Assembly (NCBI GenBank): GCA_002813105.2
Contig: CP017966.2
Span: 620,001 to 684,000, forward strand
Length of the DNA stretch: 64,000 nt
DNA from: Methanosarcinales archaeon Met12
Lineage (GTDB): Archaea; Halobacteriota; UBA148; JAJOKI01
Direction of reading: 5' to 3'
Shown piece by piece: positions 25,808 through 32,413 of the stretch. A program made the translations under genes and the position numbers. Below the pieces are notes generated by a model. That model was not told the DNA's origin. It saw nothing but the letters and a program-made list of their open reading frames with translations, and ran no database searches. Every line of letters starts with the position of its first letter. The stretch's first letter is position 1.

Positions 25808-26071
25808 TTAAGTTTTTCTAAATTGGTTATTTATAGACTCTTTTAAAATTAAAATAAGAAGTTTTCTTTTATCGATGTGGTGCTGTTAACTTAAAGCAGA
25901 AATGACGATTTCAAAACGCATAGCACCTACCTGTTTTACGTTTCAGGTAGTCCTTAAGGTAACACTGCCATCGATGTCAAGTATGAGTCTATAATCACCT
26001 ACACGTACTCTGTATCCTGTGTCTCCTATAAGTCTGGTCACATAAGTGTTAGGTCTTATTCTGATTTTTCT
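25808..26071 (-). pseudogene. relE/parE-type toxin remnant interrupted by a 90-bp element
   Basis: On the minus strand a RelE-like core reads RLIGDTGYRVRVGDYRLILDID up to 25970, then the 90-bp repeat, then after the duplicated target KRKLLILILK from about 25870 onward. Removing the 90-bp unit and one target copy restores GDYRLILDIDKRKLLILILK, the RelE strand pattern. The N-terminus is missing (in-frame TGA at 26074) and the C-terminal HR-x-VY motif is absent, so the gene was already decayed or truncated. No antitoxin gene is visible beside it. Confidence 0.75.
25880..25969 (-). mobile_element. 90-bp MITE, copy A
   Basis: It is an exact reverse complement of 32092-32181. The flanks ATCGATGTG (25871-25879) and ATCGATGTC (25970-25978) form an 8/9 target-site duplication. 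The element ends are imperfect inverted repeats: one end starts GGCAGTGTTACCTTAAGG, the other, read inward, GTGCTGTTAACTTAAAG (11 of 13 match from TGTTA). It contains an internal CTACCTG / CAGGTAG hairpin and has no coding capacity, so it must be mobilised in trans. It lies within a relE remnant. Confidence 0.88.
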
Positions 26072-32039: not shown

Positions 32040-32091
32040 ATATCTTAAATGAATGTTGAATCTCTTTATTTAAGTTATCTATATGACGCAG

Positions 32092-32181
32092 GGCAGTGTT
32101 ACCTTAAGGACTACCTGAAACGTAAAACAGGTAGGTGCTATGCGTTTTGAAATCGTCATTTCTGCTTTAAGTTAACAGCAC
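32092..32181 (+). mobile_element. 90-bp MITE, copy B
   Basis: Exact reverse complement of 25880-25969. It is bounded by a perfect 9-bp target duplication, ATGACGCAG at 32083-32091 and 32182-32190, which fixes both ends. Termini are imperfect inverted repeats (see copy A); an internal hairpin stem is formed by 32111-32117 and 32128-32134. It lies just upstream of sepS. Identity between copies implies recent transposition by a trans-acting transposase not in the window. Confidence 0.92.
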
Positions 32182-32293
32182 ATGACGCAGATTAAAAATC
32201 TGCGAGAGTTGATAACTCCGCAGGAGTTACAACATCATCAAGTTACTATTTTATATACTAAGAACTATAAATGCTATATAAGGGGTGAGACTA

Positions 32294-32413
32294 TTGTCTA
32301 AATGTGGAGAATCAAAGGGAAAGAAAGTAGAGGCTAAAAAACCAGAGGCTAAAAAACCAGAGGCTAAAAAACCAGAGGGAATAACAGATAAGTTTAAGAA
32401 ATGGAAAAAATAG
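32294..32413 (+). CDS. Tiny lysine-rich repeat protein (39 aa), TTG start
   Basis: TTG 32294 follows a strong GGGGTGAG Shine-Dalgarno (32282-32289) and a TATA-like TTTATATA near 32252-32259. The product starts SKCGESKGKK, has EAKKP in three exact tandem copies, and ends GITDKFKKWKK. It is about 40% lysine. No family recognised; the tail resembles lysine-rich histone-H1-type or nucleoid proteins only in composition. Its stop overlaps the start of a second related ORF (32401). Promoter, Shine-Dalgarno and coding bias together support a real gene. Confidence 0.55.
   Translation: MSKCGESKGKKVEAKKPEAKKPEAKKPEGITDKFKKWKK

Follow-up and report, generated by a model that had tools for sequence, protein, structure and literature searches.

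MITEs of the IS6 family, a name used here as broadly as in ISfinder and NCBIfam, are rarely described: a review of the family lists two, of 227 and 336 bp (PMC7986276), and the names given for them are MITEBth2 and MITEHarch3 (PMC6807381). The closest complete elements are those of the ISH14/ISH15/ISH29 type, among which ISH14 is 696 bp long and produces an 8-bp target duplication, while ISH15 measures 697 bp and produces one of 9 bp (PMC6807381, Table 5); it has been argued that a separate family may be warranted for archaeal IS6 elements (PMC6807381). The element considered here is gene-less and assigned to the IS6 family, as are MITEHarch3 and MITEBth2, and is set apart from them by the listed lengths, 227 and 336 bp versus 90-91 bp. 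With the ISH14/ISH15/ISH29 type it has in common ends of 14-17 bp, mostly starting with GG, and duplications of 8 or 9 bp; however, those elements are about 697 bp long, like the IS6 elements found in three genomes of the present survey (G057, G278 and G133), and encode a transposase of 211 aa, whereas the 90-bp element encodes nothing (PMC6807381). IS26, of the bacterial IS6 type, resembles it in the GG start, the G at position 7, the TGTT core and the 8-bp duplication. Conversely, the short bacterial consensus, GGTTCTGTTGCAAA, has a G at position 10 (PMC6807381), where the 90-bp element has an A; this G is also absent in the archaeal IS6 group. The 90-bp family is new, of a known type, and smaller than both MITEs listed for IS6.

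The host genome is a single contig of 1,067,436 bp, 97.24% complete, and the window, i.e. the whole stretch of 64 kb that was analysed, corresponds to its bases 620001-684000. A repeat search revealed a single long inverted repeat pair in the window, at 25880-25969 and 32092-32181, with 90-nt arms that are 100% complementary and separated by 6122 nt, confirming the two identical copies in opposite orientation of the original prediction. The element had been considered to be present twice; the whole genome contains six full copies, with 96-100% identity to the query 90-mer (Table 1). Including the terminal base, its length is 90 bp in copies C-F and 91 bp in A and B. Copies C, D and E are mutually identical over 90 bp, with the sequence GGCAGTGTTAACTTAAGGACTACCTGAAACGTAAAACAGGTAGGTGCTATGCGTTTTGAAATCGTCATTTCTGCTTAAGTTAACAGCACC, while A and B differ privately from the others by one substitution at the left end and one inserted T at the right end; since both differences are common to them, these two copies form a pair of their own. 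The predicted inverted ends are borne out as asymmetric ends of 17 bp, GGCAGTGTTAACTTAAG and GGTGCTGTTAACTTAAG, whose typical form is GG...CC. An extra terminal C (...CAGCACC) is found in four copies out of six (A, C, D and E); compared with the GGTGCTGTTAACTTAAG form, the right end of copy B has one inserted T and an altered last base. The unit is non-coding, as had been proposed: no ORF of at least 60 aa lies across copies A, B and D, and those over copies C, E and F are small or enter from the flanking DNA. A lone IS6-like end, GGTACTGTTAACTTAAA, is located 370 bp from copy F (G000:C1:514074-514090) and has no partner.

Table 1. Positions of the element copies, of the ends and target duplications within the window, and of the related family in genome G008.
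Feature	Position	Strand	Details
MITE copy A	genome 645880; window 25879..25969	-	90-mer at 25880-25969; terminal G is base 25879
MITE copy B	genome 652092; window 32092..32182	+	90-mer at 32092-32181; terminal base at 32182 is A where C is usual
MITE copy C	genome 98881; 98880-98969 (locus L003, 1500-1589)	-	
MITE copy D	genome 701093	-	
MITE copy E	genome 490487	+	
MITE copy F	genome 513616	+	
Left terminal inverted repeat, copy B	32092..32108	+	GGCAGTGTTACCTTAAG; GGCAGTGTTAACTTAAG in other copies; IS6-type
Right terminal inverted repeat, copy B	32165..32182	+	reverse complement of GGTGCTGTTAACTTAAG in most copies; IS6-type
Left target duplication, copy B	32084..32091	.	TGACGCAG; 9 bp if 32083 is included
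Right target duplication, copy B	32183..32190	.	TGACGCAG
Target duplication, copy A	25871..25878	.	ATCGATGT
Target duplication, copy A	25970..25977	.	ATCGATGT
Sister MITE family in G008, TTCAGTTAAG ends	loci L152, L157, L159, L161		

All six copies have a target duplication of their own, best read as 8 bp, which is exact in five cases and conserved at 7/8 positions in one; the chance of an exact 8/8 duplication is about 2e-5 per site under the assumed composition. In the orientation of copy B, the exact duplications are TGACGCAG (B), ACATCGAT (A), ATTACAAG (C), TCTCTGTG (D) and GAACATTA (E), and copy F has ATTTTATA/AGTTTATA. Duplications of 9 bp had originally been proposed, with ATGACGCAG on both sides of copy B and ATCGATGT plus one mismatching base at copy A; these flanks are exactly as described, while the 9-bp length applies to copy B and, if one mismatch is allowed, to copy F, and gives way to 8 bp in the four copies that end in the extra C. 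Indeed, in A, C, D and E the base following ...CAGCAC is a C that mismatches the other flank, indicating an 8-bp duplication and GG...CC ends; copy B looks like a 9-bp case because this base is an A, matching the flank, and copy F resembles B in this respect, with a T. Since related IS6 elements make duplications of both lengths, a true 9-bp event may have occurred at copies B and F. The duplications also bear on how the A/B pair was formed. Its opposite orientation at a distance of 6.1 kb and its two private differences would suit a single adjacent inversion of the IS6 type in place of two insertions, IS6 intramolecular transposition being able to invert neighbouring DNA; however, an inversion would split the duplications between the copies, whereas each of them has a different, matching one (ATCGATGT and TGACGCAG, respectively), and because of these separate duplications this origin was rejected as highly improbable.

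Concerning the insertion sites, copy B is flanked by the O-phosphoserine-tRNA ligase and TYW1 genes, and copy A is 122 bp upstream of where a branched-chain aminotransferase gene starts. Judging from the reading frames, copy C interrupts the gene for a type II restriction endonuclease, next to that of its methyltransferase, the neighbouring gene being a type II DNA methyltransferase. The frame runs as ...GYPDIIFYYK and then meets a stop inside the element; when the element and one 8-bp repeat are removed it rejoins as ...DKPYYLECK. The parts on either side of the insertion correspond to positions 1-129 and 140-219 of one PADLOC type II restriction enzyme profile. The downstream part of the gene is in another frame, so that a second lesion is present. 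The search for an empty site was also successful: in the nearest named relative, Methanocellales archaeon MAG-838 (JAJOKI010000013.1), whose O-phosphoserine-tRNA ligase is 90% identical, the copy-B site is without the element, although about 53 bp next to it are missing too and the empty site is therefore not perfectly clean. Two other short repeats are found in this region. The first is a palindrome, AATCTGCGAGAGTTGATAACTCCGCAGGAGTTACAAC, which adjoins copy B (window 32191-32236) and is also absent at the element-free site in L166; it has a related match in G001:C19, and similar palindromes occur in or beside the G001 copies. The second is a 15-bp unit, AGAGGCTAAAAAACC, repeated 3.3 times about 150 bp after copy B (window 32329-32378), in an array whose length differs in the relative L166.

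The assignment as a MITE is upheld by the six dispersed copies, the inverted ends, the individual duplications, the lack of coding capacity, the element-free site and the interrupted gene. A non-transposing repeat with a conserved regulatory or structural role, REP-like or RNA, would account for an interior that shows partial conservation between genera of the order and for single strands that fold well; nevertheless, the target duplications at all copies, the relative's site without the element and the interrupted gene make it extremely improbable, and no Rfam match was obtained for the element at the gathering threshold. The internal hairpin that had been predicted is present in the sequence; however, it is confined to the copies of the host genome and absent from those of the relatives, and for this reason it cannot be taken as a defining feature.

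Related copies of the MITE are found in the same-genus genome G001, which has four, the three detected by BLAST showing 83-86% identity, and in other genera of the order, namely in G008 and at one site common to G002, G004 and G006. The G001 copies are older, and they are without recognisable duplications. Two of the G001 contigs (C2 and C5, loci L126 and L023) agree in the left flank and as far as 23 bp into the element and then diverge, reflecting strain variation, a rearrangement or a junction introduced by assembly. In G002 (L133), G004 (L129) and G006 (L132) the element occupies one and the same position in front of a gene, and the flanking sequence that is repeated, GGAGGTT, resembles a ribosome-binding site; this suggests an old shared insertion. 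Conversely, the near-identity of the six copies of the host genome, together with their intact duplications, points to a recent burst. The activity originally proposed as current or recent is retained in its second form, since no IS6-type transposase was found in the genome to sustain the first. Exact core and end patterns gave no match in viral contigs, nor did the exact core in the genome contigs searched; a weak match in G032 is without ends and looks like chance.

The full-length IS with the same ends that was sought does occur in other archaea of the phylum, as IS6-family elements of about 700 bp with duplications of 8-9 bp. A scan of 391 genomes of the phylum with the end sequence, allowing one mismatch, revealed inverted end matches 691-704 bp apart in G057 (three times), G278 and G133, all outside the order. 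The proteins encoded between these paired ends exceed the NCBIfam IS6 cut-off of 125 bits, with 129.6, 173.6 and 125.1 bits in the order in which the genomes are listed. The MITE ends carry GG and G7, as IS6 ends do, and comparison with the G133 element gives 18/20 identities for left with left and 18/20 for right with right, versus 14-15/20 crosswise. The G133 element has an exact 8-bp duplication and those of G057 exact 9-bp ones. A variant core, GG..CTGTTCAGTTAAG, characterises the IS6 elements of G030, G028 and G019; of five tested, three are flanked by duplications, of 8 bp for one G030 element and of 9 bp for another and for that of G019. Against an IS6-type mover stands the fact that G133, which provides the best end match, is a distant genome outside the order; the nearest IS6 end within it is that of a fragment in G008 (L143), whose upstream end, GAGACTGTCAACTTAAGGA, matches at 15/20 positions. 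The 413-aa IS6-like transposases of G002 and G004, SWIM/zinc-finger-like, were considered as parents and discarded, no matching paired ends being found around them; the decayed L049 element retains one end, GGTTCTGTTAACTTCTC.

A profile built from ten family members and run against the genomes of the order detected another, distinct element of 90-91 bp, GGCGCTGTTCAGTTAAGG...CGCTTAACTGAACACTACC, which G008 carries in four copies, three of them with exact 8-bp duplications. It provides an independent link: its right end coincides with the outer 18 bases of the end of an IS6 remnant of the same genome (L146), and thus in this order a single genome can contain elements of about 90 bp and IS6 elements with ends in common. 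The interiors of the two families show at most a weak signal of common descent (p ~0.01-0.4 by shuffling).

Since the ends of the gene-less element match those of IS6-family elements, this new IS6-type MITE family was very probably moved by a borrowed IS6-type enzyme. No IS6-family transposase was detected with the PF13610 and NF033587 profiles in the host chromosome (G000) or in G001, and we infer that the source of such an enzyme would have been lost from the chromosome or would be located on another replicon. Mobilization by a transposase of another family that makes 8-bp duplications, for instance IS1595, ISL3 or IS256, would agree with this missing partner, and several transposase families do combine 8-bp duplications with a GG start; however, the end-by-end match to elements encoding IS6 transposases and the pairing of sister family and IS6 remnant in G008 argue against it and render it quite unlikely. 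IS1595 in particular was ruled out as a parent, as PF12762 has no match in the host genome or in the order; the IS1595 loci that were retrieved lack matching paired ends, save for one pair with four mismatches.

According to the IS6-type reading, the enzyme would recognise the 17-20 bp ends of the element and join them to the target with a stagger of 8 bp, sometimes 9 bp, generating the direct duplication. IS6 elements are known for cointegrates (PMC7986276), whereas all six copies look like simple insertions, which could be due to cut-and-paste transposition or to cointegrates that formed between chromosome copies and were then resolved by recombination. A broader proposal, for now rather unlikely, is that archaeal IS6-type transposases move gene-less elements of about 90 bp without passing through a cointegrate, producing clean simple insertions that each have an individual duplication, and that such pairs have persisted across the order, with ends and transposase changing in concert.

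An element of 90 bp with six clean insertions illustrates how small the requirement for DNA beyond the ends may be; it is also relevant to whether archaeal IS6 transposases depend on a cointegrate step. Copy C, as read from its sequence, is in addition an example of a MITE disabling a restriction enzyme beside its methyltransferase in a small archaeal genome.
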